Below, piece by piece: positions 29,800 through 64,000 of a DNA stretch of 64,000 bases (positions within the stretch are counted from its first letter, which is position 1; each line of letters starts with the position of its first letter). The DNA is from Kitasatospora sp. NBC_00374 (lineage in GTDB: Bacteria; Actinomycetota; Actinomycetes; Streptomycetales; Streptomycetaceae), in contig NZ_CP107964.1 in the NCBI RefSeq assembly GCF_041434935.1, positions 1,612,001 to 1,676,000 on the forward strand, in the 5' to 3' direction. The notes under the pieces are model-generated. The model worked only from the letters and a program-made list of their open reading frames with translations, was not told the origin of the DNA and did no database searches. The position numbers were made by a program, and so were the translations under genes.

Positions 29800-30834
29800 T
29801 CAGCGCACGGCCTCGCCGTAGAAGTCCGGCACCGGCTGCCCGCCGCCCGCCGCGACGACCGCGTCGTGCACCCACTTGCCGACCGCGAGGTCCAGGATGC
29901 CCAGGCCGAACGGCGAGAAGACCGCCGCCCGTCCGGGGTCGCGCACCACCGTGCCGGCCAGCAGGTCGGCGATCGTCCCGTGCACGAAGTCCCGGTGCCC
30001 GACCTGCTGTTCGGCCAGGTGCAGGGAGGTCCGCTCGCGTACGGCGTGGTCGATGTCGTCGGTGAAGTTCTGCGCGGCGAGGACCAGTTCGGGCGCCAGG
30101 TCGCGCAGCGAGAGGTGCAGCACCACCGGCGCGTGGGCGAGCAGGCCGGGGTCGGTGAGGTGCGGCTCCCCGGCGACGGTGGTGAGGATCACCAGGTCGC
30201 AGTCGGTGAAGGCGCCGGCCGCCTCGTCGACCACCTGGACGTCCTCGACGCCGTCCGCGGTGAGGGTGGCGGCGAAGCGCTCGGCGTGCGCGCGGGACAG
30301 GTCGAAGATCCGGAAACCGTCGAACTGCCACTTGAGGTCCCGGAGGAACTTCCACACGTGGCCGCCGATCAGGCCGGCCCCGACCAGGCCGATCCGCTTC
30401 ACCCGGCGCCCGCCCACCAGGGCCTCGGCGCCCAGCACGGCGGAGGCCGCGGTGCGGCTGGCGGAGACCACCGAGGACTCCATGGCGACGATCGGGTAGC
30501 CGGTCTCGGTGTCGTTGAGCAGCAGGACGGCCGAGGCGCGCGGGATGCCGCGGGCGGGGTTGTCCGGGAAGCTCGCGATCCACTTGATGCCCGCCACCTC
30601 GAACTCACCGCCCAGGTAGGCCGGCAGCGAGATGATCCGGGAGTTCGGGCGCTGCGGGAAGCGCAGGAAGGCGCTCTCGGGGTTGACGCTGTGGCCGGCG
30701 GCGTGCGTGACGTAGGCGCGGCGCACCACGTCGACGCAGGTGGCCCGGTTGGCGTCGACGTGGCGCAGCACGTCCTCGCCGGTCAGCACGCGCAGCTGCG
30801 GCAGGGTGAGCGGGGCGGCCTGGGTGTCGGTCAT
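29800..30834 (-). CDS. sbnB: SbnB-like N-((2S)-2-amino-2-carboxyethyl)-L-glutamate dehydrogenase
   Basis: A 344-residue NAD-dependent enzyme of the ornithine cyclodeaminase superfamily. In the staphyloferrin B pathway SbnB oxidatively splits the SbnA product ACEGA into L-2,3-diaminopropionate and 2-oxoglutarate. Visible here: the substrate-side FLRFPQRPNSRIISLPAYLG, IKWIASFPDNPARGIPRASA, and the Rossmann motif IGLVGAGLIGGHV near 158. It lies 56 bp downstream of sbnA in the same direction, with CAGGAG before the ATG. The pairing with sbnA is what separates it from true ornithine cyclodeaminases. It supplies Dap to the NRPS. Last gene of the cluster. Confidence 0.87.
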   Translation of the reverse strand: MTDTQAAPLTLPQLRVLTGEDVLRHVDANRATCVDVVRRAYVTHAAGHSVNPESAFLRFPQRPNSRIISLPAYLGGEFEVAGIKWIASFPDNPARGIPRASAVLLLNDTETGYPIVAMESSVVSASRTAASAVLGAEALVGGRRVKRIGLVGAGLIGGHVWKFLRDLKWQFDGFRIFDLSRAHAERFAATLTADGVEDVQVVDEAAGAFTDCDLVILTTVAGEPHLTDPGLLAHAPVVLHLSLRDLAPELVLAAQNFTDDIDHAVRERTSLHLAEQQVGHRDFVHGTIADLLAGTVVRDPGRAAVFSPFGLGILDLAVGKWVHDAVVAAGGGQPVPDFYGEAVR

Positions 30835-30890
30835 CGTTCGGTGCTCCTGAGCGGTAGGGACGGTGGGGCGGTGCGTCACACGGCGGTGCG

Positions 30891-32030
30891 TCACAGGGCG
30901 GACGGCAGGGCGGCGCCCGGCCAGTCGGCGGGGGCGGGGCGGCCGGCGAAGGACCGGGCGACCCAGCCCGCGTCGTACACGGTCTCGGCGTACGCGGTGC
31001 CGCGGTCGGCGCAGAGGAAGGCGACGGTCGGGCGCGGCCCGGCGGTCGGGCGGCGGCCGAAGTAGTGGCCGATGGCGGCGTAGACGCTGCCGGTGGAACC
31101 GCCGGCGTACAGGCCGTGCTTGCGGACCAGTTCCAGGCAGCCCTGGACGGCGGCCGGTTCGGGGACGATCACCACGTCGTCGATCAGCGCCCGGTCGCAC
31201 AGCGGCGGGACCAGACTGGAGCCGAGGCCGGGCAGCAGGCGGGTCTGCGGCGGCTGGCCGAAGATCGCCGAGCCGGCCGCGTCCACCGCGACCACGGTGG
31301 CGGCCGGGTGGGCCTCCTTGACCCGGCGGGAGACGCCGGCGATCGTGCCACCGGTGCTGACGCCGAGGAAGACGTAGTCGAGCCGGGGCAGCGCGGCGCA
31401 GAGTTCGCCGCCGGTCATCTCGTAGTGCGCGAGCAGGGCGTCCTCGTTGGCGTACTGGTTGGGCCAGTACACGTGCCGGTACTCGGTCTGCAGCTCCTTG
31501 ACCCTGGTCAGCCGGGTGGTGAGGTAACCGCCGCTCTGGTCCCGCTCGGTGACCTTCTCCACCCGGTCGCACATGATGCCGAGGTACGCCTCGGTGAGCT
31601 GGTTGCAGTTGGGGTCGATCACCGGCACGAAGCCGATGCCGAGCGAACGGCAGAACGCGGCCATCGAGATGGCGAAGTTCCCCGAGGAGGACTCGACCAC
31701 CGTGGTCTCGGTGGTGATCTCGCCGCGCTCGATGGCGCCCTTGAGGATCCAGAACGCCGAGCGGTCCTTGGAGCTGCCGTTCGGGTTGCAGTACTCCAGC
31801 TTGGCGTAGAGGTCCACGTTCTCGTCCTCGATCCGCACCAGCGGCGTCTCGGAGAAGGTCGCGGCCAGCATCGCGAGACGGCTGCGCAGCGGCCCGGCCG
31901 GCGCGTCGGCACCGGTCAGGGCCGGGTCCGGGGCGAGGGCCGCCGCCGGGTCGAGGACTGCGGGCGCACACTCGGCAGGCCGTGGCATCGTCGACACGGT
32001 GCAGTCCTTGTGACCGTTCTGTGCTGGCAT
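30891..32030 (-). CDS. sbnA: SbnA-like PLP-dependent ACEGA synthase (Dap biosynthesis)
   Basis: A 379-residue cysteine-synthase-fold enzyme. SbnA joins O-phospho-L-serine and L-glutamate to give N-(1-amino-1-carboxyl-2-ethyl)-glutamate, the precursor of L-2,3-diaminopropionate. The PLP lysine is K88 in YCNPNGSSKDRSA; the substrate loop reads VESSSGNFAISMA and the phosphate-binding Gly-rich loop GVSTGGTIAGVS. An extension of about 55 residues precedes the core. The ATG at 32030 has GGAG upstream at long spacing. A 168-bp gap with a GC hairpin near 32092-32110 separates it from the condensation-domain gene, so a separate or attenuated transcript is possible. Confidence 0.88.
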   Translation of the reverse strand: MPAQNGHKDCTVSTMPRPAECAPAVLDPAAALAPDPALTGADAPAGPLRSRLAMLAATFSETPLVRIEDENVDLYAKLEYCNPNGSSKDRSAFWILKGAIERGEITTETTVVESSSGNFAISMAAFCRSLGIGFVPVIDPNCNQLTEAYLGIMCDRVEKVTERDQSGGYLTTRLTRVKELQTEYRHVYWPNQYANEDALLAHYEMTGGELCAALPRLDYVFLGVSTGGTIAGVSRRVKEAHPAATVVAVDAAGSAIFGQPPQTRLLPGLGSSLVPPLCDRALIDDVVIVPEPAAVQGCLELVRKHGLYAGGSTGSVYAAIGHYFGRRPTAGPRPTVAFLCADRGTAYAETVYDAGWVARSFAGRPAPADWPGAALPSAL

Positions 32031-32198
32031 AACGCCGTTTCTCCAGTCGTGTGTGACGGGTGTGGGGGGATACCCCGGGCAGCGGGCGATCGCGCGGCGG
32101 CCCGCCGCGCTTCGCCGGGTCGGTGCGCTTCGCCGGTGGTCGGGTCGCCGTCGGCCCGTCCGGCCCGGCCTGTGGCGGAGCGGTACGGTGCGTGCCCG

Positions 32199-33623
32199 CT
32201 ACCAGTCGGCGGTGGCGAAGGAGAGCAGGGTCGCCCGCTCCGCCGCGTCGACCAGGGGCACCCGGCGCACGGACAGGTCCGGGTCGGCCACCGCGGCGGC
32301 GAGCAGCAGCCGGTAGTGGTTGGCCATCCGGCCGACGGTCGCCGCATCGAACAGGTCGGTGTCGTACTTGAACGCCACCTTCACTGCGCCGTCGCTCTGC
32401 AGCACCTCGGCACTCAGATCGAACTGGCCCTCCTGCTGCGGCAGGTCGAAACCGGTCAGCCGGACGCCGTGGTGGAGCAGCTCGGGCTTGGCGCCGTCCT
32501 CGGGGGCCAGCAGTTCGAGCAGCGGCTGGAACCGGGTGGCGGTGATCAGGCTGAACATGCTCTGGAACACCGGGGTACGGCTGGGGTCGTGCGCCAGGCC
32601 CAGCTCGGCGGGCAGCAGCGGCAGCGGCAGGTCGCGGTGCGCGATGCCCTGCCGCAGTTGGTCCGCGGTCCGCTCCAGCAGCCGGCGGAAGGTCAGGTCG
32701 CCGTCGGTGAAGGCGGCCCGGCAGGGCAGGGTGTTGACGAAGTAGCCGACTGTGCTGCGCATGGTCCGCTCCGGCCGGGTGCTGACGGCGTAGCCGACCA
32801 GGAACTCGGGCTGCGCCGTCCAGCGGTGCAGCAGGGCCTGGAAGGCGCCGAAGAGCAGGACGAACGGGGTCACCCCCGCCGCGGCGGCGGCCGGCCGCAG
32901 TGACCTGGCCAGGTCCTCGGGCAGCCGGAAGTCCCAGCTGGCGCCGGTGAACCGCTTGCGGGCGGGGCGTGGCCGGTCCGTCGGCAGTTCCAGCGCGGAC
33001 GGCACGCCTTCGCAGACCGCCCGCCAGTGGTCGGCCAGCACGGCCCGGCGCGGCGAGTCGAGCAGTTCCCGTTCCGCGGCGACGTACTCCCGGTACGGGC
33101 GGGCGACGCCCGCGCGGCCCGGATCCTCGCCGTCCAGCTCGGCCCGGTAGGCCGTCAGCAGGTCCTCCAGGACGAGTACCTGGGACGCGCCGTCGGTCAC
33201 CGCGTGGTGTGCCGCCAGCAGCAGCACCACGTCCTCGCGGGACCGGCGCAGCAGCAGGAGCCGGACCGGGCCCGGTTCCGCGAGGTCGAACGGGCGGGCG
33301 ACGGCCTCGCGCGCCGCGGCGTGCAGCTGCTCCTCGGTCGTGTCGGGCAGCTCGCGGATCTCCAGCAGGCCCGGCAGGGCGTCGGCGACGACCCGGCGCG
33401 GACGCCCGTCCCGCTCGGTGAAGCCCGAGCGCAGCAGCTCGTGCCGGGCCGCGACCGAGGCGGCGGCGCGGTGCAGCGCCGCGTCGTCGAGCGCCTGGCG
33501 GATCCGGACGGCCATCGCGACGTTGTACGCCGGGCTGGCCGGGGCCAGCTTCTGCAGGAACCAGAGGGCCTCCTGCCCGAGCGAGACCTCGTGCCCGGCC
33601 TGCGGGGTGGGCTCGGCGGTCAA
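32199..33623 (-). CDS. Free-standing NRPS condensation domain
   Basis: A 474-residue single condensation domain. The active-site motif HHAVTDG at 139-145 is canonical, as are the N-terminal SLGQEALWFLQKLAPASPAYN, GYFVNTLPCR and HRDLPLPLLPAELG segments. There are no A or carrier domains attached. Translation begins at a TTG that overlaps the stop of the ACP gene (TTGA), so the two proteins are made together. The likely job is transfer of the fatty acyl group from that ACP to the first aminoacyl carrier of the assembly line, or to a side-chain amine such as Dap; the sequence cannot decide which. Confidence 0.88.
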   Translation of the reverse strand: MTAEPTPQAGHEVSLGQEALWFLQKLAPASPAYNVAMAVRIRQALDDAALHRAAASVAARHELLRSGFTERDGRPRRVVADALPGLLEIRELPDTTEEQLHAAAREAVARPFDLAEPGPVRLLLLRRSREDVVLLLAAHHAVTDGASQVLVLEDLLTAYRAELDGEDPGRAGVARPYREYVAAERELLDSPRRAVLADHWRAVCEGVPSALELPTDRPRPARKRFTGASWDFRLPEDLARSLRPAAAAAGVTPFVLLFGAFQALLHRWTAQPEFLVGYAVSTRPERTMRSTVGYFVNTLPCRAAFTDGDLTFRRLLERTADQLRQGIAHRDLPLPLLPAELGLAHDPSRTPVFQSMFSLITATRFQPLLELLAPEDGAKPELLHHGVRLTGFDLPQQEGQFDLSAEVLQSDGAVKVAFKYDTDLFDAATVGRMANHYRLLLAAAVADPDLSVRRVPLVDAAERATLLSFATADW

Positions 33624-33886
33624 CGCTGCCCCACCAGGCCGTGCAGGTACGCGGTGATGGCGCCGATGGTCGGGTGGTCCCAGGCGAGGGTGGATTCCAG
33701 CTCCAGGTCGTAGCGGTCCTCGATCTCGGTGATGATGCTCATCCCGTAGACCGAGTCGAGGCCGTACTCGACCAGCTTGACGTCGGGCCGGAGCTCGTCC
33801 GCGGGCCGGTCGAGGTAGTAGGCGACGCGGCCGGTGAGCCAGTCGGCGATGGCCTCGGCGGAGGTGTCGATGGCGGTGTCGGACAT
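33620..33886 (-). CDS. Acyl carrier protein of the lipopeptide cluster
   Basis: An 88-residue carrier protein. The phosphopantetheine Ser is S45 in EYGLDSVYG; the D-S-V form is typical of acyl (PKS/FAS-like) rather than peptidyl carriers, which usually read GGHS. It has a helical N-terminus (EAIADWLTGRVAYYLDRPADEL) and the acidic recognition helix 2. The ATG has AGGGAA upstream. It lies between the dehydrogenase gene (37-bp gap) and the condensation domain (4-bp overlap), so it should carry the fatty acid loaded by the acyl-AMP ligase and desaturated by the dehydrogenases. Confidence 0.92.
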   Translation of the reverse strand: MSDTAIDTSAEAIADWLTGRVAYYLDRPADELRPDVKLVEYGLDSVYGMSIITEIEDRYDLELESTLAWDHPTIGAITAYLHGLVGQR

Positions 33887-33923
33887 GTCGGGTTCCCTGC
33901 CGTTCGGTTGGTGGGTGTGGTGG

Positions 33924-35465
33924 TCAGCGGGCCGGCGGGCGGCCGGCCAGGTCGAGGGTGCGGCCCTGCTGCAGCCGGGTGCGCAACTCCTGGAGGAGTG
34001 CCGGGTCGCGGTCGGGCGCGGCGGGGCCGGTGGGACGGCCGGTCCGGGCGGCCAGGCGCTGCAGTGCGGCGTGGATCCAGAGCGGTGCGTCGCGGAAGGC
34101 GTCCCGGCCGGTGCGGCCGTGCCACCAGAGCCGGAGGCAGGCGGCGGCCGCGAAGGCGTCCTCGTCCTCGTCGGTGGTGGCGAACGACCCGGCCAGGGAA
34201 GCCAGTTCGGGGTGGGCGGCGGCCAGGTCGGCGGGCAGGCCGGCGAGGCCGGCGGGCAGGCCGGTACCGGCCACGCCCGGGGCCCGGAGCCGCGCCGGGT
34301 CGAGGGCGGGCAGCTGCGGATCGGGGGCGAACAGCGCCTCGGCCGGTGCGGACGGGGCCTGCGTGGGGTCGGCGCCGGCGGGTGGCGGCACGTTCAGCAG
34401 GGCGGTGAGTGCGGTGCGGTCCCGCTGGTGCTTCTGGAACACCGCGTGCGGGCCCTCCCGCAGGTAGGAGCGGGCGCCGAGGAGCAGCGAGAGCTGGTGC
34501 CCGGCGTCCCGGACCAGGCGGGCGACCAGGCGCTGTGCGGTGTGCTGCAGGTCCGCCCGCTCGGGGTGCAGGTGCAGGGCGCGGGCGGCGACGGCGGTCG
34601 CGCAGTCGGCGATCAGCAGGTCGAGGAAGGCGTCGGCCAGCAGGCCCCGGGCGCTGGGCAGCCCGGTGACGGGCCTGCCGTAGAGGACCCGTTCGTCGGC
34701 GAAGGAGAGCGCCGTGCGCAGCTGGGTGTCGAGGACGCCGACCAGGGCCGAGGCCAGGACGGTGCCGGTGATCCGGCGGACGGTGGCGGCCCGGGCCCGC
34801 CCGTCGCCGTCCGGGCCGACCAGCCGGTCGGCGGGGACGCGCAGGCCGTCGGCGGTGACGGCGGCGAACCGGCAGCCGCGCAGTCCGGTGCCGCTGTGCG
34901 GCGGGGACGGGCGCAGGCCGGCGTCGCCGGTGAGCAGCAGGTGGCCGTGCCCGCGGTCGAGGGTGACGGGCAGGAACAGCGCGTCGGCCCCGGCCGGGTC
35001 GCCGACCAGCTGCTCGGCGCCGCGCAGCACGAGGTCGCCGCCGTCCCGGGCGGCCCGCAGACCGGGGCCGGGGCTGGGGAAGGCGGTGGCGACCCGGCGG
35101 TCGCCGAGCAGCAGGGCGGCGAGCTCGGACTGCTGGGCGGGGTCACCGGTCTGCCAGACGTGCAGGCCCGCGGTCAGGCTGCCGAGGCCGTACCCGGCCG
35201 CCAGGGCCAGGTCCCGGCGGGCGACCGTGCGGAAGGCGTCGGCGAGTTCGTCGGCTCTGGTGAGGGTGCCGCCGAGGGCGGCGGGCACGAGTTCGGCGTT
35301 GAAGCCGTAGGCGTCCAGGGCGCGGACCCCGGCGGCGGGGAGTTCGGCCCGCTCGTCGGAGTCCACCACGGCGTCCAGGCCGAGCGGGTTGCCCGGGGCG
35401 AGCGGGTCGCCGAGCAGGGCGTCCAGGCGGGCCGTGCGGGGGCGCTCGGGCAGCGGCGCGGTCAT
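33924..35465 (-). CDS. Divergent acyl-CoA dehydrogenase-like protein (second of pair)
   Basis: A 513-residue protein of the acyl-CoA dehydrogenase fold with a C-terminal extension of about 120 residues. The helical N-terminal domain (FRTVARRDLALAAGYGLGS) and the C-terminal four-helix domain (LLADAFLDLLIADCATAVAARAL) are recognisable. The flavin/substrate strand that reads LTEQQHGSD in its neighbour is here AFPSPGPGLRAARDGGD, so the usual motif is lost. It may be a non-catalytic partner or may use another binding mode. The ATG overlaps the stop of the first dehydrogenase (ATGA), implying equal synthesis and probably a heteromeric complex. Confidence 0.8.
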   Translation of the reverse strand: MTAPLPERPRTARLDALLGDPLAPGNPLGLDAVVDSDERAELPAAGVRALDAYGFNAELVPAALGGTLTRADELADAFRTVARRDLALAAGYGLGSLTAGLHVWQTGDPAQQSELAALLLGDRRVATAFPSPGPGLRAARDGGDLVLRGAEQLVGDPAGADALFLPVTLDRGHGHLLLTGDAGLRPSPPHSGTGLRGCRFAAVTADGLRVPADRLVGPDGDGRARAATVRRITGTVLASALVGVLDTQLRTALSFADERVLYGRPVTGLPSARGLLADAFLDLLIADCATAVAARALHLHPERADLQHTAQRLVARLVRDAGHQLSLLLGARSYLREGPHAVFQKHQRDRTALTALLNVPPPAGADPTQAPSAPAEALFAPDPQLPALDPARLRAPGVAGTGLPAGLAGLPADLAAAHPELASLAGSFATTDEDEDAFAAAACLRLWWHGRTGRDAFRDAPLWIHAALQRLAARTGRPTGPAAPDRDPALLQELRTRLQQGRTLDLAGRPPAR

Positions 35466-37192
35466 ACCGTCTCCTCCGTCCGGCAGTGCAGCAGCGAGAA
35501 CAGTTCGCCGTCCCGGTACTGCTGGTGGAGCCTCTCGGAGAGGCGGTCGAAGACCGATCCGTCCCGGACGGCTCCGGGCCGGAGCCGTCCGAGCAGCCGG
35601 GCCAGGCCGGCCTCCAGCCACAGGCCGTCGGCCCACAGCGCGGCGGTGGGCGAGTCCGCGGCCGCGTCCCGGTTGCGCAGCCACAGGTGGACGCAGGCGG
35701 CGGCCGCGAACACCTGGGTCCACCGCCGGGCCAGGTCGAAGGCCTCGGGCGGGACGTCCCGGGCGGAGGGGCGGTGGTCGGCCATCGCCGTGTGCAGGCC
35801 CTCGGTGATCTCGCGCAGTTCCTCGGCGTACCGGCCGAGCACCGCCGGTACGGCGCACCGCTCGGCCAGGTCGGCCAGTTCGGCGAGCGCGGCCGGCAGG
35901 CTCTGTACCAGGCTGCTGCCGGTGCGGGAGAGCAGTTCGAGCGAGCCGCCGTCGGCGGGCGGCAGGGGGGCCTGCAGGTCGACGGTGCTGGCGAGGCCGT
36001 CGGTGTCGGCCTTGCGCCGCCGGTGGCCGCGGGCGAGCTGGGGGAACTGGTTGATCAGCCCGTTGAGGTTCACGAAGCTGTTGCCGTCGAAGATGCTCAT
36101 GATGTGGTGGTCGCGCTCCAGCTTCTGGAACGCGCCGTGCATGGTCGAGCGGCTGAGGAACACTCCGGCGCCCAGCGCCGAGCCGAGGGTGGCGATCAGC
36201 TGCTCGACGGTGAGCGGGACGAAGCACTTGACGGCGGCGGACACCACGGAGAGCTCGCCGGTGAGGGCGTGGATCGACCGGGCGCCGACCAGGGTGACGG
36301 CCTCCGCGACCAGCAGGTCGGCGTAGGACTCGGTGAGCGGGCGGGCCGCGGCCGGGGTGCCGTCCGCCGGGTTGACGTGGTCCAGGCTGTACCGGACGGC
36401 GAGCCGCAGCGCGTGCTCGCCGGTGCCGAGCGACAGCGGGCCGCACAGACTGCGGGTCAGCTGGAGGCACTTGAGGACGGTCTCCAGGCCGGTGCCGACC
36501 GCCCCGACCAGCGCGCCGGCGGGGACCTCGGCGTCGGTGAAGGCGATACCGCTGATGTCGGCGCCGCGGATGCCGACCGTGCGGACCGCCGGCAGGCAGC
36601 GGTAACTGCCCGGCGCCAGCTGTCGCTTGTCGACCAGCAGCAGGCTGAAGGCGCGCGGCCCGCCGGCCGGGTCGGTCCGGGCGAGCACACAGACGAACTG
36701 GCCGCGCGAGGCGTTGCCGATCAGCCACTTCTCGCCGTTGATCCGGTACCAGCTCTCGCCCTCGGCGGTGGCGAGCTCGTTGGCCAGCAGGTCGCTGCCG
36801 TGCTGCTGCTCGGTGAGCGCGAGCGAGACCACACTGCCGTCGTGGATCTCCGCGGCGAGCCGGTCGGCCTGCTCGGGGTCGCCCGCGAGCCAGACCGAGG
36901 CGGCGCCGAGGAAGGTGCTGACGTGGGCGATCGCGACGGTCAGGTCACGGCGGGCGACGGTGCGCAGCAGTGCGGCGAGCTCCTCGTAGCTGTGCAGCAG
37001 GCCGCCGTGGCCGGTGGGCACGTAGTGGCGGGCCAGTCCGCGTTCGTCCAGCGTCCGGCAGATCTCGGTGGGGAACTCCTCGCGCTCGTCCAGATCGGCG
37101 CAGCGGGCGAAGGAGAACACCTGGAGCGGATCGTGCGGGTCGCCGAGCCTGCGGTCGAAGTCCGCGATCAGCTCGTGCGGCAGGTACTTCAC
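35462..37192 (-). CDS. Acyl-CoA dehydrogenase acting on the carrier-bound acyl chain (first of pair)
   Basis: A 576-residue FAD enzyme, much longer than the usual 380-residue dehydrogenases because of a C-terminal extension of about 180 residues. Conserved parts: FRTV-like LLRTVARRDLTVAIAHVSTFLG, the flavin motif SLALTEQQHGSDLLANE (about 127-143), NGEKWLIGNASRGQFVCVLART, and the C-terminal-domain helices around 265-400 (HGAFQKLERDHHIMSIFDGNS). Starts with GTG overlapping the ligase stop by 4 bp. By position it should introduce an alpha,beta double bond into the acyl chain, as dehydrogenases next to acyl-AMP ligases do in friulimicin- and ramoplanin-type clusters. Confidence 0.88.
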   Translation of the reverse strand: MKYLPHELIADFDRRLGDPHDPLQVFSFARCADLDEREEFPTEICRTLDERGLARHYVPTGHGGLLHSYEELAALLRTVARRDLTVAIAHVSTFLGAASVWLAGDPEQADRLAAEIHDGSVVSLALTEQQHGSDLLANELATAEGESWYRINGEKWLIGNASRGQFVCVLARTDPAGGPRAFSLLLVDKRQLAPGSYRCLPAVRTVGIRGADISGIAFTDAEVPAGALVGAVGTGLETVLKCLQLTRSLCGPLSLGTGEHALRLAVRYSLDHVNPADGTPAAARPLTESYADLLVAEAVTLVGARSIHALTGELSVVSAAVKCFVPLTVEQLIATLGSALGAGVFLSRSTMHGAFQKLERDHHIMSIFDGNSFVNLNGLINQFPQLARGHRRRKADTDGLASTVDLQAPLPPADGGSLELLSRTGSSLVQSLPAALAELADLAERCAVPAVLGRYAEELREITEGLHTAMADHRPSARDVPPEAFDLARRWTQVFAAAACVHLWLRNRDAAADSPTAALWADGLWLEAGLARLLGRLRPGAVRDGSVFDRLSERLHQQYRDGELFSLLHCRTEETV

Positions 37193-38958
37193 GCGTCCGC
37201 CCCGCCCTCGGTGACGGCGGCCGGCCGGTACTGCGCGCGGGTCCGCGGGCCGAGGTCCTCGTGCAGCGGCTCCAGTTCGCCGGCGACGAACAGCTGCCGC
37301 ATCCGGGAGCGCTGGATCTTGCCACTGGTGGTGCGCTGCACCTTGCCGGGCCCCAGCAGCACCACATTGCCGACGGGCACGCCGAGGCTGCGGCTCAGGG
37401 TGAGCTTGACCTCCCCCGCGAGGGTGGCCAGGTCGGTACCGGCCAGCTTGGCCGGCCGGACCTCCTGGACCACCACCAGGTCCTCGCCCGAGCTGCCCCC
37501 GGGGACGGAGAACACGCTCGCGGACAGCCCGCCGAAGGCCGGGTGCAGCTCGCCGCTCTCCCGTTCGATGTCGTGCGGGTAGAGGTTGCGGCCGTTGACG
37601 ATCAGCAGGTCCTTGATCCGGCCGGTGACGTAGAGCTGGCCTTCGTGCAGGACGCCCAGATCGCCGGTGCGCAAGTGGCCGCGGTCGCCGTCGGCCGTCG
37701 CCACGTCGAAGACCTGTTCGTTGATCTCGGGCTTGCGCCAGTACCCCGGGGCGATCGATCCGCCGCGCAGCCAGATCTCGCCGACCTCGCCGTCCGCGAG
37801 CACCTGACGGGTGCTCGGGTCGACGATCCGGACCTCGATGCCCACCGGGGAGCCGCAGCTGACCAGCGGTGCGCCGTCCGGCCGCGGCCGGAACACGTTG
37901 CGCTCCAGCTCGGCCGGGTCGACGAGGGCGACCGGGGGTTCGCGGTCGAGGGCGGTGGTGGTCACCCCGAGGGTGGCCTCCGCCAGGCCGTACGAGGGTC
38001 GCATCGCGGTGGCCCGGAAGCCGGTCGGGGCGAGCCGCTCGGCGAACAGGTCCATGGTCCGGGCGTGCACCGGCTCGGCGCCGTTCGCGGCGCAGCGCCA
38101 GGAGGACAGGTCGAGGCGGGCGAGGTGGTCCTCGGTGACGGACCGGGCGGCCAGGTTGTAGCCGAAGTTCGGCGCGTAGCTGTGGGTGGCCCGGTAGGTG
38201 TGGATCAGCTCCAGCCAGGCGTACGGGCGGCGCACGAAGTCCGTCGGCGGCATCAGCACGGTGCGCAGCCCGTAGTGGAGCGGCAGCAGCAGCGCGGCGA
38301 TCAGGCCCATGTCGTGGAAGAGCGGCAGCCAGCTGCAGACGGTGTCGCCGGCCCGCAGGCCGAGCAGGGCGCGCAGCTCACCGAAGTTGTGCGCGAGGTT
38401 GCCGTGGCCGACCATCACGCCCTTGGGGTCGCTGGTCGAGCCGGAGGTGTACTGCAGGAAGGCGAGCTGCTCGGGGTCGGCCTCGGGCCAGACGTAGCGG
38501 TCCGGCTCCACCTGCGGCACGGTCTCGGTGACCAGGCAGCGGACCTGGGACTGCTCCTCCTGCTCCAGCCACTCGGCGACCTCGGGCAGGGTGGCGCGGT
38601 CGGTCAGCACCGCCGTCGCCTCGCAGTCCTGCAGGACGCCGGTGGTGCGGCGGCGCTGGCTGGAGCCGCGCCCGGGCAGCGGGACCGGCACCGGGGCGAG
38701 GCCGGCGTAGAGGCAGCCGAGGAAGCCCTTGACGAACTCCAGGCCGGTGGGGAAGAGCAGCAGGACCCTGTCCCCCGGTTCGCAGTGCCGGCGCAGTTCG
38801 GCGGCCACCGACTGGGCGTCCTGGACGAGTTGGGCGTAGCCGAGGGTGCGGGTGACGGCGTCCTTGCCGTAGCCGGTGACGAGGACGACGGCCTCGTTGC
38901 CGGGGATCTCGCGGGCGTGCCGCGCCGTCGACTGGATCAGATCGGACATGGTCGCCAT
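37189..38958 (-). CDS. Fatty acyl-AMP ligase (FAAL)
   Basis: A 589-residue adenylating enzyme that activates a free fatty acid as acyl-AMP and passes it to an ACP rather than to CoA. The P-loop-like motif is QYTSGSTSDPKGVMV (about 171-185), followed by WLPLFHDMGLI and the FAAL-type FRPSYGLAEATL-like segment MRPSYGLAEATLGV. The D-x-x-Y/F-x-x-GR motif appears as VTGRIKDLLIVNGRNLYPHDIE. An FAAL-specific insertion is consistent with the length. The start at 38958 shares one base with the MFS stop (TGATG); Met at 38949 is an alternative. It supplies the N-acyl group of the lipopeptide. Confidence 0.92.
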   Translation of the reverse strand: MATMSDLIQSTARHAREIPGNEAVVLVTGYGKDAVTRTLGYAQLVQDAQSVAAELRRHCEPGDRVLLLFPTGLEFVKGFLGCLYAGLAPVPVPLPGRGSSQRRRTTGVLQDCEATAVLTDRATLPEVAEWLEQEEQSQVRCLVTETVPQVEPDRYVWPEADPEQLAFLQYTSGSTSDPKGVMVGHGNLAHNFGELRALLGLRAGDTVCSWLPLFHDMGLIAALLLPLHYGLRTVLMPPTDFVRRPYAWLELIHTYRATHSYAPNFGYNLAARSVTEDHLARLDLSSWRCAANGAEPVHARTMDLFAERLAPTGFRATAMRPSYGLAEATLGVTTTALDREPPVALVDPAELERNVFRPRPDGAPLVSCGSPVGIEVRIVDPSTRQVLADGEVGEIWLRGGSIAPGYWRKPEINEQVFDVATADGDRGHLRTGDLGVLHEGQLYVTGRIKDLLIVNGRNLYPHDIERESGELHPAFGGLSASVFSVPGGSSGEDLVVVQEVRPAKLAGTDLATLAGEVKLTLSRSLGVPVGNVVLLGPGKVQRTTSGKIQRSRMRQLFVAGELEPLHEDLGPRTRAQYRPAAVTEGGADA

Positions 38959-41266: not shown

Positions 41267-41339
41267 CGTCTTTCCGTTCCATGGGTGTTGGGGGGAGCCG
41301 GGCACAGTGGGGCTCGGCGGGGCGCGGGTGGGCGGCGGC

Positions 41340-56300: not shown

Positions 56301-57953
56301 ATCGGACGCCATGTACGCCAACCGCTCCGCCGGGTACGCCGGATCCAACGGCACATACGCACCACCGGCCTTCAGCACCGCCAGCAGCGTCACCACCAGC
56401 TCGAACCCACGCTCCAGACACACCCCCACCAGCGCCTCCGGCCCCACCCCGAGACCCCGCAACCGCCACGCCAACCGGTTCGCCCGCGCGTTCAGCTCCC
56501 CGTACGACAGCGACACCCCCTCGAACGACACCGCCACCGCATCCGGGGCGCAACCCACCTGCCGCTCGAACACCTCATGCACACACAGCCCCTCCCAGAC
56601 ACCGACCGCACCCACGATCGGCCGGTCGACGACCGCCAGCTCGGCGGCGTCGAGCAGTGCGACCTCGCCGACCCGCGCGTCGGGGCCTGCCACAACGGCT
56701 GCCAGCAGCCGCTGGAACCACTCCACCAGCCGTTCGGCGGTCGACCGGTCGAACAGGTCGGCCGAGTACTCGACGCCGGCGTCCAGACCTGCGCCCGCGC
56801 GGTCCGAGAAGCCGAAGGACAGGTCGAACTTGGCGGTGTCCCCGATCGTCGGCAGCGGCTCCACCCGGACGCCCGGGAGGTCGACCGCGGCGGCCACCTG
56901 GCCGTCGTCGAAGGTCAGCATCACCTGGAACAGCGGGTGGCGGTTCATCGAGCGGACGGGGTTGAGCAGCTCGACCAGCCGCTCGAACGGCACGTCCTGG
57001 TGCGCGAACGCCGCCAGGTCCGCCGTCCGGACCCGGCCCACCAGCTCCCGGAACGTCGGATCACCCGACACGTCCGTCCGCAGCACCAGCGTGTTCACGA
57101 AGAACCCCACGAGGTCGTCCAGCGCGACGTCGGTCCGGCCGGCCACGGGGGTGCCGATCGGTACGTCCGTCCCGGCGCCCAGGCGGGAGAGCAGGGCGGC
57201 GACTGCCGCCTGCACCACCATGAACACCGTCGCCCCGCACTCCCGCGCCAGCGCGGTCACGCCCGCGAACACCGCGTCGTCCAGCCGGAACTGGACCAGC
57301 CCGCCCGCACCACCGGGCTCGGCCGGCCGCACCCGGTCCGCCGGCAGCGCCAGCTCGGCCGGCAGATCCGCCAACGCGGAGCTCCAGAACCCGAGTTGCC
57401 GGGCGAGCAGGCTCGCCGGGTCGCTCTCCTCGCCCAGCAGCTCCTGCTGCCAGAGGGTGTAGTCGGCGTACTGCACCGGCAGTTCGTCCCACTCCGGCGC
57501 GGCGCCGCCCAGCCGGGCCGCGTACGCCGTCCCGAGGTCGCGGGCGAACGGGGCGAGCGACCAGCCGTCGCCGGCGATGTGGTGCAGCACGATCAGCAGG
57601 TCGTACGCGTCCGTGCCGGTCCGGGTCAGCCAGGCGCGGATCGGCAGCTCGGCCGTCAGGTCGAACGGCCGGGCGGCGGCCTCCACCGCGTTCCACGGCC
57701 CGGCGACCGGCTCCAGCAGGTCGCCGACCTCTCCGAGCGACAGCACCCGCTGGTGCGGCTCACCGTCGGCCTCGGGGAACACCGTCCGCAGGCTCTCGTG
57801 CCGCCCGACGACGTCCCGCAGCGCGAGTCCGAGCGCCACCCGGTCCACCGGGCCGGTCAGCCGCAGTCCGAGCGGGATGTTGTACGAGGAGCCGGCTCCC
57901 TCCAGTCGGTTCAGGAACCACAGGCGCTGCTGGGCGAAGGAGAGGGGGATCAC
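41340..57953 (-). CDS. Five-module NRPS with terminal thioesterase
   Basis: A 5,537-residue assembly line: (C-A-T)x5-TE. Approximate residues: C1 1-440, A1 455-960, T1 975-1040; C2 1060-1490, A2 to 2010, T2 2065; C3 from 2118, A3 core 2732, T3 3130; C4 from 3185, A4 core 3800, T4 4178; C5 from 4233, A5 core 4845, T5 5222; TE 5285-5537 with GWSFGG near 5355. All C domains have HHIA/V-x-DG, all carriers GGHS. Specificity residues as I read them: A1 DFWSVGMVHK (Thr-like), A2 DTDDSGYVDK and A3 DTDDMGYVDK (acidic pocket, basic substrate), A4 DVFSVAIVYK and A5 DVFSVAVVYK (not assigned). No epimerase or methyltransferase domain. The GTG start overlaps the upstream NRPS stop (GTGA). Confidence 0.97.
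42170..47200. repeat. Near-identical direct repeat of A-T regions, modules 4 and 5
   Basis: About 42170-44065 and 45300-47200 match at an offset near 3,132 bp, covering the end of each A domain, the carrier and the A core. One divergent block (about 43460-43595 versus 46593-46725), upstream of the A core in the protein, interrupts the identity. Codon usage within the repeat is conspicuously C-ending even for this genome. Confidence 0.85.
48940..53579. repeat. Near-identical direct repeat of A domains, modules 2 and 3
   Basis: About 48940-50405 and 52114-53579 match at an offset of 3,174 bp. A block at about 49365-49600 versus 52539-52775 diverges strongly inside otherwise identical sequence; it covers the part of the substrate pocket around specificity positions 278-301, where Met replaces Ser at position 299. 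Confidence 0.85.
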
Positions 57954-60900
57954 GCGGTTCCCTCCGGGCGGGTCATCCGGCGCAGCTTGGGGCGGGCGGG
58001 CGTGGTGTCGGCCGGGTCGGTGCCGCCGAGGCGTTCGGCGATGGCGGCGACGGTGGGGGCCGCGAAGAAGGCGTCGATGGCGAGTTCGACGTCGAGCACC
58101 GAGCGGATCCGGCCGATCAGGCGGATCACCAGCAGGGAGTGGCCGCCGAGGGCGAGGAAGTCGTCGTCGATGGAGACCTGTTCGAGGCCGAGCAGTTCGG
58201 CGAACAGGCCGGTGAGGGTCGTCTCCAGCGGTGTCCGCGGGGCGCGGCCGGGCGCGGCGGCGGGGGTGGGCCCGGGGGCGGGGAGGGCCTTGCGGTCGAG
58301 CTTGCCGTTCGGGGTGAGCGGGAAGGCGTCGAGCGCGACGAAGGCGGAGGGCACCATGTAGTCGGGCAGTTCGGCCGCGAGGTGGGCGCGGACGGCCTCG
58401 GGGTCGAACCGGTCGACGCGGTGGGCGGGGACGAGGTAGGCGACCAGGCGGACGTCGCCGGGCCGGTCCTCACGGGCGACGACGGCGCACTGGGCGACGG
58501 CCGGGTGGGCGCCCAGCACGGCCTCGATCTCGCCGGGCTCGATCCGGTAGCCGCGCAGCTTGACCTGGGTGTCGGCGCGGCCGCGGTAGTCCACCTCGCC
58601 GTCGGGCAGGACGGTGCCGACGTCCCCGGTGCGGTACATCCGGGCGCCGGGCGGCCCGTACGGGTCGGGCAGGAAGCGCTCGGCGGTCAGGGCGGGCAGG
58701 TCGGTGTAGCCGCGGGCGACGCCGGCCCCGCCGACGTAGATCTCCCCGGACTCGCCGGCGGCCACGGGGCCGAGCGCACCGTCCAGGACGTGCATCGTGG
58801 TGTTGGTGATGGGCCGGCCGATGGGGACGGTCTCGGGCTGCGGGCCGGTGGCGACGTGGGCGGAGTTGGCGACGGTGATCTCGGTGGGGCCGTACTCGTT
58901 GACGAAGCGGATACCGGTGTCGCCGGCCAGGTCGAGCCAGGTGTTGACCAGCCGGCCCGGGAAGAGCTCACCTCCGACGCTCAACAGCCCCGCGAGTCCG
59001 GCGAGTTCGTCTCCGGACAGCTGCTGGAGCAGCACCTCCAGGTGGGCGGGGGTGAGCTTGACGAAGCTGTACGGGCCGCCGTCGACGAGGTGCTTGCCGA
59101 GGTCGGCGGGGGCCAGGTCGGCGGGCAGCAGGTGGACGGTCTGCCCGGCGAGCAGCGGGGTGTACAGGGCGGGCACGACGAGGTCGAAGGCGACCGAGGA
59201 GAAGACCGGGGCGCCGCCGGTGCCGCGGGTGGCGTACTCCTCGACCGTCCAGGTGAGGTAGTTGGCGAGGCCCCGGTGGGTGACCTCGACGCCCTTGGGC
59301 CTGCCGGTGGTGCCGGAGGTGTACACGACGTAGGCGAGGGTGTCGGGGTCGACGTCGATCCCGGGGGCCGCGGTGGGCTGCCCGGCGAGGGCGTCGCGGT
59401 CGACCAGCAGCCAGTCGCACTGGCCGAGGCCGGTGAGCCGGGCGGCGAGCGCGGGGTGGGTGATGACCACGTCGGCGTGCGACTCGCGGATCACCCGCTC
59501 CAGGCGGGCGGTGGGGAAGGCGGGGTCGAGCGGGACGTAGGCGCCGCCGGCCTTCCAGACCCCGAGCAGGGCGGCGACCAGGTCCGGGCCGCGGTCGAGC
59601 AGGACGGCGACCCGGGACTCGGGGCGCACGCCGAGGGCGAGCAGCCGGTGGGCGAACTGGTTGGCCCGGGTGTTCAGCCTGGCGTAGGAGAGCTTGCCCT
59701 CGGTGGAGACCAGGGCGGTGGCGACCGGGGTGGTGGCGGCCTGCTGTTCGAACAGCGCGATGGTGGTGCCGGCGGGCCGGGGGTCGGCGGCGGGCCGGGC
59801 CGGGTGGGTCCGGCGGACGGGCTCGGCGCCGGTGCGGGCGTCTCCGTCGAGGTTGTTGACCATGTCGCGCAGAACCTCTCGGTACATGTCGGCCAGCCGC
59901 TCGGCGTTGGCCCGGCTGATGGTGTGGGTGTCGGTGGAGAGCACGATGCCCCGGCCGGAGGCGATCACGTTGAGGCCGATCTCGTTGGGCGTCTCGCCGA
60001 TCCCGAGGTCGCCGTCGACCTGCTCGTCGGTGGCGTGGAAGTCCAGGTAGCTGAACGAGATCTGGATCAGGCCGGTGCGGCCGGTGTCGCGCTGGATGGC
60101 CGGCAGCGGGTAGCGGCGGTGCGGCCAGATCTCGGCCTCCCGGTCGAGTACCTGCCTGATCAGCTCCCGCCAGGTGCGGGCGCCGCGCTCGGCCGCGAAC
60201 GGGACGGTGTTGAGGTGCATGCCGTAGACGTGCTCGGCGCCGGGGACCTCGGGGCGGCCATGGGCGACCAGGCCGGTGTAGAAGCTGCGGGCCGGGGTGA
60301 AGCCGCTCATCACCCTGGTGTGGGCGGCGAGCAGGACGCTCTTGACGGAGGCCCGGGTGGCGGTGGCGACGGCGCTGACGCCCTCGGCCAGGTCGTCCAG
60401 CAGGATCCAGGTCTGGAAGGCCTCGCGCGGTGTGCCGGGTGCGTCCCGCCAGTGGGCGGGGAGGGTGACCGGGGTGTGGTCGGTGACGATCCGCCGCCAG
60501 TAGGCGCGGTCCTCGGCCGAGTCGAGGGCGGCCAGTTCGGCGGCGATGAAGTCGGCGTAGCGGACGGTGGTGCGGCCGGGCTCGGGCGGCGCCTCGCCGT
60601 CCCGGAGGCTGCGGTAGCAGGCGATCAGTTCCATCACCAGGGCGTGGTGGCTCCAGCCCTCCAGGATCACGTGCGACTCGGTGAGGGTCAGCCACCAGCC
60701 GCCGCGGCCGGTGTGGGCGAAGACCCGCAGCAGCGGGAGGTCGTCGGACGCGAACACGGCACGGCGCTCGGCGGCGATGAAGGTGCGCAGGGCGGCCTTC
60801 TCGGCGTCCTCGTCGAGGTTGGAGAGGTCGTGGCTGCGGAACGGTATCCCGGCGGTGCGGTGGACGATCTGCAGCGGGACGGAGTAGCCGGAGATGTCCA

Positions 60901-62992
60901 GCGAGGTGCGCAGGATCTCGTGCCGCTCGGCCATCAGGGCGACGGCGGCGCGCAGGGCCTGCTCGGAGAACGGCCGGTCGTCGTTGATCCTGAAGCAGGT
61001 GACGTTGTGGTACCGGTTGCGCTCGCGGTCGGCCAGCATCTCGATCAGCATGCCGAGTTGGAGCTGTCCGAGCGGGTAGGCGTCGGTGGCGTCGGCGGGC
61101 AGGGCGGCCCGGTCGTCGGCGGTGATCAGCTCGAACGGGCGGACCGGGGCGTCCGGTCGGGCGTCCGTCGGGGTGCGGGAGTCGACCAGCCCGGCGAGGC
61201 CGGCGACGGTGGCGTGCTGGTAGACCTCACCGGCGGTGACCTGGAAGCCGGCCGTTCGCAGGGCGCCGATCAGGGAGAGCACCCGGATGGAGTCGCCGCC
61301 GAGGTCGAAGAAGGTGTCCTCGACGCCGATCCCGTCCCGGCCGAGGACCTCGCTCCAGAGCTCGGTGAGCCGTGCCTCGGTGGCGGTGCGGGGTGCCACC
61401 GCCGTGCGGACGGCGGCCGTGGCGGCACGCTCGGGCGCGGGCAGGGCCCTGCGGTCGAGCTTGGCGGTCGAGGTCAGCGGGATGGCGGGCAGTTCGACGA
61501 AGGCCGCCGGCACCATGTACGCGGCGAGGGTGGTCGAGAGCGCGGCGTGCAGCTGGGCGGCGTCGGCAGAGCCGCCGGGCCGGGCCGTCCAGTAGGCGAC
61601 CAGTTCCCGGTACCCGGGGGTGTCCTCGCGGACGATCACGACGGCCTCGCGGACGTCGGGGTGGGCGGCCAACGCGGCCTGGATCTCACCGAGTTCGATC
61701 CGGTAGCCGCGGATCTTCACCTGGTCGTCGGCCCGGCCCACGGACTCCAGGGTGCCATCGGGGAGGCGGCGGGCCAGGTCACCGGAGCGGTAGAGCCGGG
61801 AACCGGGTGCGCCGAACGGGTTGGGGACGAAACGCTCGGCCGTCAGCGCGGCCCGGTCGAGGTAGCCGCGGGCGACCCCGCGTCCGCTGACGTGCACCTC
61901 GCCGACCACGCCGACCGGCACCAGCCGGCCGTACGCGTCCAGCAGGTGCACACCGAGGTCCGGCAGCGGGCCGCCGATCGGGCTGGCGGACGGCGTCGCG
62001 AGGTCGGCGGCCGTGAGGCGGTGGAAGGTGGTGTGGACGGTGGTCTCGGTGATCCCGTACATGTTGATCAGCGCGGGCGCGTCCAGCCCGAGCCGTCCGG
62101 CCCACGGTGCGAGCTCGGCGAGCTCCAGCTTCTCGCCGCCGAACACCACGTGCCGCAGCGCGAGTTCACCGATCCTCGGGTCGCCGGCACCGGCCAGACC
62201 GACCAGCGAACGGAACGCGGACGGCGTCTGGCTGAGCATCGTGACCTGCTCGATGACCAGCAGGTCGAGGAAGTCCTCGGGCGAACGGGCCACGTCGAAC
62301 GGCACCACCACCACCCGGCCACCGAACAGCAGCGCACCCCACAACTCCCAGACGGAGAAGTCGAACGCGTACGAGTGGAACAGCGACCACACGTCGTTCG
62401 GGCCGGGGTGGAACGACTGCTCCGCGGCCGTGAACAGGCCCACCACGTTGGCGTGCGACAGCGTGACGCCCTTGGGCCGTCCGGTGGAGCCGGAGGTGTA
62501 GATCACATACACCGCGTTGTCCGGCGACACGGCCGTGTCCAGGTCGGCGGACGGCAGCTGCGCGACCTCCTCGGCGACCTCCTCCAGCACCACCACCGGA
62601 CCGCCCCACACCGAGGCCACCAGCCCCGCGTGCGCCGACTGCGTCACCACACACGCCAACGCGGCATCGGACGCCATGTACGCCAACCGCTCCGCCGGGT
62701 ACGCCGGATCCAACGGCACATACGCACCACCGGCCTTCAGCACCGCCAGCAGCGTCACCACCAGCTCGAACCCACGCTCCAGACACACCCCCACCAGCGC
62801 CTCCGGCCCCACCCCGAGACCCCGCAACCGCCACGCCAACCGGTTCGCCCGCGCGTTCAGCTCCCCGTACGACAGCGACACCCCCTCGAACGACACCGCC
62901 ACCGCATCCGGGGCGCAACCCACCTGCCGCTCGAACACCTCATGCACACACAGCCCCTCCCAGACACCGACCGCACCCACGATCGGCCGGTC
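55251..62992. repeat. Near-identical 1.38-kb direct repeat (two copies, A domains)
   Basis: 55251-56627 and 61616-62992 match at a constant offset of 6,365 bp with only a few substitutions seen (for example in the stretches near 55397/61762, 55444/61809 and 55608/61973). Both encode the whole core of the DFWSVGMVHK adenylation domains of the two NRPS genes. Flanking C and carrier domains are clearly different, so homogenisation was confined to the A domain. Confidence 0.9.
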
Positions 62993-64000
62993 CACCAGGG
63001 CCAGCTCCCCGGGTGGGAGGAACGTGACGGTGGCGTCGCCGTCCGGGTCGGCCGCCATCGCCTCGACGACGGCGCGGTAGAGCGCGGCGATCCGGTCCGT
63101 GTCGGCGCGGCCGAGGGTGTGGGAGTCGGTGGCGAGGGTGAAGCAGCCGCCGAGGGTGGTGACGGTCAGTCCGAACTCGGTGTGGCCCTCGTCGATGACG
63201 CTCTCCGCGTCGATCTGGCCGAGGTCCACCTGGTGGAAGTTCTGGTGGTTGAACATCACGTCGATCAGGCGGCCGCCGTCGCCCAGTTCCCGCTGGATGA
63301 CCGGCATCGGGAACCGGCGGTGCGGCCACATCGCGATCTCGTCGCCGAGCACCTGCTGCACGAGCTCCCGCCAGGTGCGGGCGGTGCGGCGGGCCGGGAA
63401 CGGCAGGGTGTTGAGGTACATGCCGTACACCCGGTCGGCGCCGACGATCTCGGGCCGGCCGTCGCAGACCAGGCCGGTGTAGAAGCTCGCCTCGTCGGTG
63501 AGCATGCTGAGCACCTTGAGGTGGGCGGCCACCAGGACGTTCTTGAGGGAGGCCCGGGCCCGGACGGCGAGCAGCCGCAGCTGCGGCTCCAGGTCCCGGT
63601 AGGGCACCGGGATGCGGTAGTACTCGCGCGGAGCCGTGCGGTCGGCGCCCCAGCCGGCGGGCAGGGCGAAGGCGGGGTGCTCGTCCAGGACGCCCTGCCA
63701 GAAGGCCCGTTCGTCCGGGGAGGCGATGGCGGTCTGCTCGGCGGCGATGAAGTCGGCGAACCGGACGGCGGGCGTCTCGGGCACCAGCGGGGTACGGCCG
63801 AGGCGCAGCGCGCGGAAGGTCTCCAGCAGCTCCATCAGCAGGGAGTGGTAGCTCCAGCCCTCCAGGACCGGGTGGCACTCGGTGATCGAGATCCACCAGC
63901 TGTCCTCGGCGGTCAGGTGCGCGGTGACCCGGATCAGCGGCGGCACGTCGAGGTGGAACGGGTTGGCCCGTTCGGCGGCGGTGAACTCACGGAGGGCGCG
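57950..64000 (-). CDS. Two-module NRPS, N-terminus beyond the right edge
   Basis: The last 2,016 residues of an NRPS whose start is outside the window. Order: partial C (64000 to about 63000), A (about 62990-61470, core at 62495), T (GGDS near 61290), C (about 61090-59860), A (about 59760-58300), T (GGHS near 58130) and a short basic tail. The first A domain is nearly identical in DNA to A1 of the next NRPS (code DFWSVGMVHK, Thr-like). The second reads DLPKSGEVAK; Lys at 278 and Glu at 322 suggest Asp/Asn or a derivative. Both C domains have an unusual active-site motif (CHPVLEGW and SHVILEGW). The first carrier reads GGDSI, a form often seen before epimerase or dual domains. Confidence 0.95.

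Follow-up and report, generated by a model that had tools for sequence, protein, structure and literature searches.

Transcarbamylases that form β-ureidoalanine (Uda) are known from viomycin and zwittermicin (PMC4581275), and acyl-tail genes for a fatty acyl-AMP ligase (FAAL), an acyl carrier protein (ACP) and dehydrogenases have been linked to branched unsaturated tails (PMC11342130). FAAL starts and the dehydrating-type condensation (C) domains called CmodAA are likewise already known. In this study we analyzed a window of 64,000 nucleotides from Kitasatospora sp. NBC_00374 (contig NZ_CP107964.1, G000:C1:1612001-1676000 in our numbering; genome 9.2 Mb), with our own gene calls over 195 kb around it. 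A nonribosomal peptide synthetase (NRPS) cluster extends from window position 29800 to about 74416, by our gene calls ~10.4 kb beyond the right window edge. We consider it reasonably likely that the product of this cluster is an N-acylated peptide, roughly ten residues long and starting with Uda, assembled by the steps proposed below. The sequence itself shows which genes and domains are present, their order and conservation, the active-site signatures and the co-occurrences, and from it we infer all substrates and chemical steps.

In the proposed pathway SbnA and SbnB would make L-2,3-diaminopropionate (Dap) and the carbamoyltransferase would turn Dap into Uda, free Dap probably being an intermediate and not a residue. 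The ACP would receive a fatty acid from the FAAL, and the two dehydrogenases would desaturate the acyl chain. The adenylation (A) domain of NRPS 1 would load Uda on the first thiolation (T) domain, and the stand-alone C domain would join the acyl chain to it. A C-T module without A domain might then add a residue loaded in trans; NRPS 2 would add two Thr, which its two CmodAA domains would dehydrate to dehydrobutyrine (Dhb) while condensing, followed by an Asn- or Uda-like residue; and NRPS 3 would add Thr, two probably basic and two further residues before the thioesterase (TE) releases the chain. The predicted product is unsaturated acyl-Uda-X-Dhb-Dhb-Asn/Uda-like-Thr-(basic?)2-(unknown)2. 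Such a peptide, in which neighboring dehydrobutyrines occur together with an acyl tail and a ureido group, would be chemically unusual.

The Dap genes, named as such in the original prediction, both score above their NCBIfam cut-offs. The carbamoyltransferase had been predicted to be a non-ornithine enzyme of viomycin type, and its second-substrate signature agrees: it reads TTRWQTTG and HDLP, with TDVWASMG and HCLP at the same place in solved ornithine enzymes. A Streptomyces californicus enzyme (locus L081), which we presume to be VioL, is 54% identical and reads TSRWQTTG and HDLP. Among 67 family sequences, which include genes fetched twice and copies cut by locus ends, T[TSA]RW[QEN]TTG is found in 65 and HDLPAHRG in 64; S-M-G and HCLP were seen in the solved ornithine enzymes and in a housekeeping-like copy of genome G335. 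The enzyme thus appears to be VioL-type and not an ornithine enzyme, and we propose that it carbamoylates Dap; citrulline synthesis was dropped because the ornithine signature is lost. One scan of GTDB species genomes gave a family of 55 loci. In the window's taxonomic family, 53 of 394 sampled genomes hold a transcarbamylase relative at E <= 1e-100, 16 of those in the genus. The genus and family searches found more than 74% identity to the window enzyme only in G029 and G066, and the GTDB species scan found a Streptomyces contig (WAC 04229) at 74%. Within the genus, 18 of 70 genomes are carbamoyltransferase-positive at E <= 1e-40 and 46 have SbnB above cut-off, all 18 positives being among those 46. 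SbnB lies within 40 kb of the carbamoyltransferase in 16 of the 18; in G048 and G057 the two matches are on different contigs. It is this genomic co-location with SbnB that points to Dap as the substrate.

Some loci of the carbamoyltransferase family look different. L037 (Streptomyces sp. SM10), L040 (Kitasatospora paracochleata) and L089 (G059) have SbnA, SbnB, the carbamoyltransferase and a stand-alone C domain, L037 also a carrier-sized gene and an ATP-grasp protein, and within the stretch fetched none of the three has an A domain; perhaps they make a non-NRPS ureidoalanine product. A second conserved cluster type (L032, L042, L047, L048, L060, L078; domains checked in L032) has the carbamoyltransferase and an NRPS beside myo-inositol-phosphate-synthase-like and xylose-isomerase-like genes. 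Outside Actinobacteria, relatives at 52-55% identity occur in Acidobacteriota MAGs (L066, L068, L079) and a Holophagales MAG (L072), in L066 near NRPS domains and a FAAL-like protein.

The identity of the first residue rests on A1, the A domain of NRPS 1, which lies outside the window and reads DAWQFATIDK. The code positions were taken from GrsA and anchored on motifs, and they recovered the published Thr code. Uda is isosteric with glutamine, and the A1 code differs at two positions from the Gln code DAWQFGLIDK. Scoring the 21 best candidates per genome, we obtained 89 A1 matches in 41 genomes of the genus and read the best locus in 30 of these. Fourteen read DAWQ[FCTL]ATIDK, all in carbamoyltransferase-positive genomes, and the other 16 have a Ser code (14 in negative, 2 in positive genomes); the 11 matched genomes outside this reading are 10 negatives and the positive G059. 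With G019 (L122) added, the code type is present in 15 of the 18 positive genomes. The random probability is 1e-7 for 15/15 coded genomes among 16 positives (30 genomes read), and 1e-12 over all 70 genomes, though the code was not read in every one of them. Outside the genus (three candidates per genome), 20 of the 22 loci read have DA[WL]QxAT[IV]DK; 20 of the 22 are in carbamoyltransferase-positive genomes, 19 with the gene on the same contig within 31 kb. This reading did not extend to matches in G125, G318, G286, G369, G221 and G243, nor to the second matches in G121 and G361. G335 (DALQFATVDK) has no carbamoyltransferase nearby, and its 49% homologue with full signature lies about 358 kb away. 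G307 has SbnA/SbnB-like genes and CmodAA-type matches, no such carbamoyltransferase, and the altered code DAWQSGTNEK, of which N330 and E331 are peculiar to it. As a control, the DAWQ code was found in none of 20 SbnB loci of carbamoyltransferase-negative genomes; 11 of them held an A domain, three reading DIWE (one partly resolved) and one DIWQSTA, and two further control loci (L132, L133) had no A domain. We take DIWE to be a Dap code, and no A domain of the window's assembly line has a code of this type. From these observations we infer that A1 loads Uda as the acylated first residue. Dap as residue 1 was dropped on the control loci and G307. Of the earlier expectation of a Dap and/or β-ureidoalanine residue, the Uda part is favored over citrulline, and Dap is probably confined to the role of intermediate. 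No DAWQ code occurs in the text of PMC12283262.

Several points weigh against this reading of A1. Three carbamoyltransferase-positive genomes (G010, G057, G059) did not show the code. The counts ignore relatedness and the A1 loci were found by homology. A1 and the carbamoyltransferase may simply have been inherited together, and the code's absence from negative genomes reaches only the loci read. Of the four odd residues in the G307 code, two (S299 and G301) are found in positive genomes as well (L201; L188, DAWQTGTIDK). Finally, a second NRPS of G066 (contig C46) reads DAWQCATIDK without a carbamoyltransferase of its own; the only carbamoyltransferase match of this genome and its only SbnB above cut-off both lie on C67.

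It might be possible that A1 loads Dap and that carbamoylation comes only afterwards, either on the carrier protein or once the peptide is finished. This would follow the proposal for VioL in viomycin, where carbamoylation is placed after Dap incorporation (PMC10880069), and would suit the presence of Dap genes in the same cluster. We consider it unlikely, as the SbnB control loci described above lack the DAWQ code, with DIWE or DIWQSTA in four, and the A1 pocket is altered in G307, which has SbnA/B-like genes but no such carbamoyltransferase. Somewhat less likely again is that A1 loads glutamine, to which its code comes close, and that Uda enters elsewhere, for example at the DLPKSGEVAK module (A4). 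DLPK or DLTK codes with EV are indeed frequent in carbamoyltransferase loci. However, a domain for Gln would have no need to follow the carbamoyltransferase in its distribution; G061, G006, G039, L050 and L055 show A1 but, as far as their sequence was seen, no DLPK/DLTK-type code; and two of the negative control loci (L112, L113) have EV-type codes too. The last two observations also led us to reject A4 as the only Uda module. That the transcarbamylase acts on 2,4-diaminobutyrate, as in padanamide, or on ornithine is very improbable, given the co-location with SbnB in the genus, the signature common with the presumed VioL and the loss of the ornithine SMG loop; a transcarbamylase for 2,4-diaminobutyrate does exist (PMC4581275).

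The two dehydrobutyrines are predicted from C domains 2 and 3 of NRPS 2 (CmodAA domains 1 and 2), which read ECHPVLEGW and ESHVILEGW in place of HHxxxDGW. Among solved structures, domain 1 matches the McyA C domain (3e-64) and the AmbE CmodAA (1e-50) best, with PvdL next (1e-24), and domain 2 gives the same order (3e-54, 3e-46 and 3e-28); for both domains McyA and AmbE lead other solved relatives by more than 15 orders of magnitude. An ordinary NRPS 3 C domain, used as control, has 5u89 first (3e-123) and McyA (2e-7) and AmbE (9e-7) near the bottom. CmodAA marks near the donor tunnel are a [K/R]SVLLAAH helix, T, E and RR (PMC11342130). Both window domains have K..L.AAH and RR (KNVLVAAH and a second stretch of 10 protein letters), and T and E near the tunnel when counted by eye. 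Each domain directly follows a Thr module (DVWSVGMVHK and DFWSVGMVHK; these A domains are 82% identical), from which two Dhb are predicted. Both domains were also seen in G029; the G066 contig ends before them. To be set against this, both domains have EG, and the D of DG is strictly conserved in 50 published CmodAA; by counting, domain 1 has D at the position of the AmbE active histidine H1632 (domain 2 has H). A profile that we made from these two domains themselves picked out 65 CmodAA-type domains (64 distinct) in the fetched loci, with EG in 41, DG in 20 and another motif in 4. The strict published helix motif, a further adverse point, is found in only 21 of the 65 (0 of 185 other C domains); a loosened motif is found in 57 of the 65 versus 1 of the 185. 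CmodAA-type domains are present in 31 of the 55 carbamoyltransferase loci.

The remaining codes of the line are, in order after A1, none, DVWSVGMVHK, DFWSVGMVHK, DLPKSGEVAK, DFWSVGMVHK, DT-D[LM]GYVDK twice, DVFSVAIVYK and DVFSVAVVYK, the modules of NRPS 3 thus being Thr, two DT-D.GYVDK and two DVFSVA[IV]VYK before a type I TE. DFWSVGMVHK is listed for Thr, and DLTKIGEVGK and DLTKVGHVGK are placed in the Asp/Asn group (PMC12283262). A4 resembles Asn codes, and its residue is predicted to be Asn- or Uda-like. The two DT-D.GYVDK residues are probably basic, judging only from Asp278, Gly301 and Asp331, which are seen in many Arg codes; this code has an alignment gap at position 239, and the first of the two domains has S or L at 299, depending on alignment. 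The ten condensation-family matches are all C domains, so a separate epimerization domain is absent and every residue other than Dhb is expected to be L. That modules are repeated, as the original prediction had it, is borne out by nucleotide identities of 99% for A3/A5, 95% for A8/A9 and 94% for A6/A7.

NRPS 1 is A-T-C-T in three species, and the protein is full length in G029 (82%) and G066 (66%), so an assembly error behind the A-less module was rejected. Because related A1 proteins elsewhere are A-T-C-A-T, the A domain of the second module has probably been lost. The second A domain reads DLPKVAEVGK in seven of these relatives (L035, L041, L044, L062, L088, L114, L118) and has a Thr code in two (L050, L055); DVDENGNVTK is found in four with a C domain before A1 (L085, L121, L122, L149). 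A4, A1 or a Thr domain could serve the A-less module in trans, in the way that CmnA-A1 loads CmnI (PMC12400406). The second T domain of NRPS 1 scores 67.8 bits with its L044 counterpart and 67.0 with two NRPS 3 T domains, a near-tie. In one of the loci an NRPS end piece (L050:3-1565) continues into a domain resembling class C beta-lactamases, which may be a thioesterase of the penicillin-binding-protein type.

The FAAL, ACP and dehydrogenase pair resemble the acyl-tail genes of PMC11342130, and by analogy with such clusters the acyl tail is probably unsaturated, which had been expected. The elements of a FAAL-initiated lipopeptide, namely FAAL, ACP and a C domain for N-acylation, are all present, with the lone C domain replacing a fused starter C, and an N-acylated peptide, also foreseen, is what they would predict. 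The lone C domain would acylate the first residue. It has orthologues in G029 (82%) and G066 (66%), and its family occurs in 14 fetched loci, some being one place fetched twice; in L035, L044, L030 and L037 it lies beside a carrier-sized gene (PF00550 confirmed for L035 only), an arrangement consistent with transfer of the acyl group to an N-terminal A-T. Less favorably, the two dehydrogenases, 28% identical to each other, match characterized ones only distantly, and the lone C domain is LCL-like and not of starter type: its best solved relatives are Txo1 and 5u89, the CDA C domain being far weaker, and a starter-type assignment was rejected on this ranking. A siderophore function suggested by the MFS_3 match alone was dropped, since the genes annotated in the cluster include none for a siderophore.

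Taken further, the window cluster might belong to a large, apparently undescribed actinobacterial family of Uda-NRPS clusters. In such a family Uda would often be the first activated residue, the dedicated Gln-like code DA[WL]QxAT[IV]DK would have evolved from Ser-activating domains together with the VioL-type transcarbamylase, many members would have CmodAA domains with the Glu motif, and the Kitasatospora branch would have lost the second A domain and would rely on a different A domain of the line to load the remaining T domain in trans. We see the case for and against this wider proposal as evenly balanced. The code put forward here for A domains that select β-ureidoalanine can be tested; if true, many orphan actinobacterial clusters would become readable, and the products of Uda clusters would be recognizable by loss of HNCO (43 Da). 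In the window cluster this code occurs together with EG-type dehydrating C domains and an A-less module, which are likewise accessible to in-vitro work.

The coordinates of the cluster genes are collected in Table 1. The leftward gene series described in the original prediction was recovered with every named gene on the minus strand and in the stated order, and its mostly overlapping starts and stops correspond, with our start calls, to overlaps at six of ten in-window junctions (five of 4 bases, one of 1 base; the four gaps are 37-201 bases). All cluster genes except TauD run leftward, so NRPS 1 would act first, then NRPS 2 and NRPS 3, whose gene ends overlap by 4 bases. New relative to that prediction are the two dehydrating-type C domains, the A-less module, and the genes NRPS 1, MbtH, TauD and the regulator, which follow outside the window after NRPS 2 is cut by its edge. 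The gene set recurs in two further Kitasatospora genomes, split over contigs and with partial NRPS genes: in G029 on contigs C181 and C831, and in G066 on C67 (SbnB through carbamoyltransferase and part of NRPS 3) and C399 (part of NRPS 2, NRPS 1, MbtH, TauD and the regulator). For the window genes beyond SbnB on the left, no match lies beside SbnB in G066, a more distant member, and the cluster limits were set by the gene content of this genome. The TauD gene has two generic relatives.

Table 1. Genes and selected domains of the cluster in window coordinates
Feature	Position	Strand	Evidence
SbnB-type dehydrogenase (Dap synthesis), left cluster limit	29800..30834	-	TIGR03944 404.5 bits, cut-off 326.9
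SbnA-type PLP enzyme (Dap synthesis)	30891..31997	-	TIGR03945 381.8 bits, cut-off 349.95
Stand-alone condensation domain, LCL-like, HHAVTDG intact	32199..33623	-	PF00668 280 bits
Acyl carrier protein	33620..33886	-	PF00550
Acyl-CoA-dehydrogenase-like protein a (divergent)	33924..35465	-	weak PF00441, below cut-off
Acyl-CoA-dehydrogenase-like protein b	35462..37192	-	PF02770, PF02771, PF00441
Fatty acyl-AMP ligase (FAAL)	37189..38958	-	PF00501; PRK05850 437.7 bits, below cut-off 775
MFS exporter	38958..40280	-	PF07690, PF05977
Carbamoyltransferase	40277..41266	-	transcarbamylase domains PF02729/PF00185; carbamoyl-phosphate motifs STRTR, HPTQ; TTRWQTTG, HDLP
NRPS 3, 5537 aa, 5 x C-A-T + type I TE	41340..57953	-	domain profiles, code reading
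Thioesterase domain of NRPS 3	41388..42098	-	PF00975 114.8 bits
NRPS 2, 3240 aa, C-A-T-CmodAA-A-T-CmodAA-A-T	57950..67672, in window to 64000	-	domain profiles
CmodAA domain 1 of NRPS 2, ECHPVLEGW	63053..64321, in window to 64000	-	solved-structure ranking
CmodAA domain 2 of NRPS 2, ESHVILEGW	59858..61117	-	solved-structure ranking
NRPS 1, 1191 aa, A-T-C-T, outside window	67669-71244	-	gene calls, domain profiles
MbtH, outside window	71309-71530	-	gene calls
TauD oxygenase, outside window	72194-73126	+	gene calls
AfsR-like regulator, outside window	73211-74416	-	part of AfsR profile, below cut-off

Between 41340 and 64000 the plus strand has open frames of up to 3264 aa opposite the NRPS genes, probably an effect of GC-rich codon use and not genes. 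Two other NRPS clusters lie near the window. One, at G000:C1:1703277-1735218 (about 91-123 kb in window coordinates), is separate, has two ABC exporter proteins, a flavin N-monooxygenase-like gene and the codes DMWNLGLINK twice, DSWDLG[YF]VDK, a Ser-like and a Gly-like one, and perhaps makes a hydroxamate siderophore. The other, at G000:C1:1565347-1599752 to the left of the window, has DpgC above its cut-off, a CmlS-like halogenase that stays below cut-off, and an enzyme of the histidine-ammonia-lyase family.

Searches of an open-access library, whose scope did not include MIBiG or most subscription papers, turned up neither a Uda-containing lipopeptide nor a named cluster with these genes. 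As far as we could see, what is new is the joint presence of these genes, the code proposed for Uda, and CmodAA domains with EG. With viomycin and capreomycin, the window cluster shares, judged by the S. californicus locus L081, the SbnB-type Dap gene, the carbamoyltransferase signature and MbtH; L081 differs in a carbamoyltransferase of 54% identity and in its codes (DPQDVGIVNK, DTEDVGTVMK). The hallmarks of tuberactinomycins are a core NRPS set, capreomycidine genes and β-Lys ligation. None of these is among the annotated cluster genes, and the NRPS architecture is different. Viomycin and capreomycin clusters are not known to have FAAL, ACP or acyl dehydrogenases, nor are their products known to be lipidated. 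Unnamed carbamoyltransferase clusters in Streptomyces, Phytohabitans, Micromonospora, Nonomuraea and others come close, many sharing SbnA/B, the DAWQ-type A1 and CmodAA-type domains; they differ in a complete C-A-T module after A1 and in other NRPS lines, and few have FAAL/dehydrogenase relatives (L050, L055 beside A1). Ramoplanin is another lipopeptide whose cluster has FAAL, ACP and dehydrogenases. The same acyl-tail gene set is found for corallorazine clade III, malacidin, cadaside and taromycin (PMC11342130), and an NRPS module without A domain also in the viomycin and capreomycin clusters (PMC12400406). Unlike the FAAL lipopeptide clusters, the window cluster adds Dap/Uda synthesis, the stand-alone C domain and two CmodAA-type domains. 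The latter are of the same type, and in the same position after a Thr/Ser module, as those of AmbE, albopeptide, microcystin McyA and corallorazine. Cys at the first His, or its loss, has also been reported in some published CmodAA; the window domains differ from those named here in having Cys or Ser for the first His and Glu for Asp in the C3 motif (EGW).

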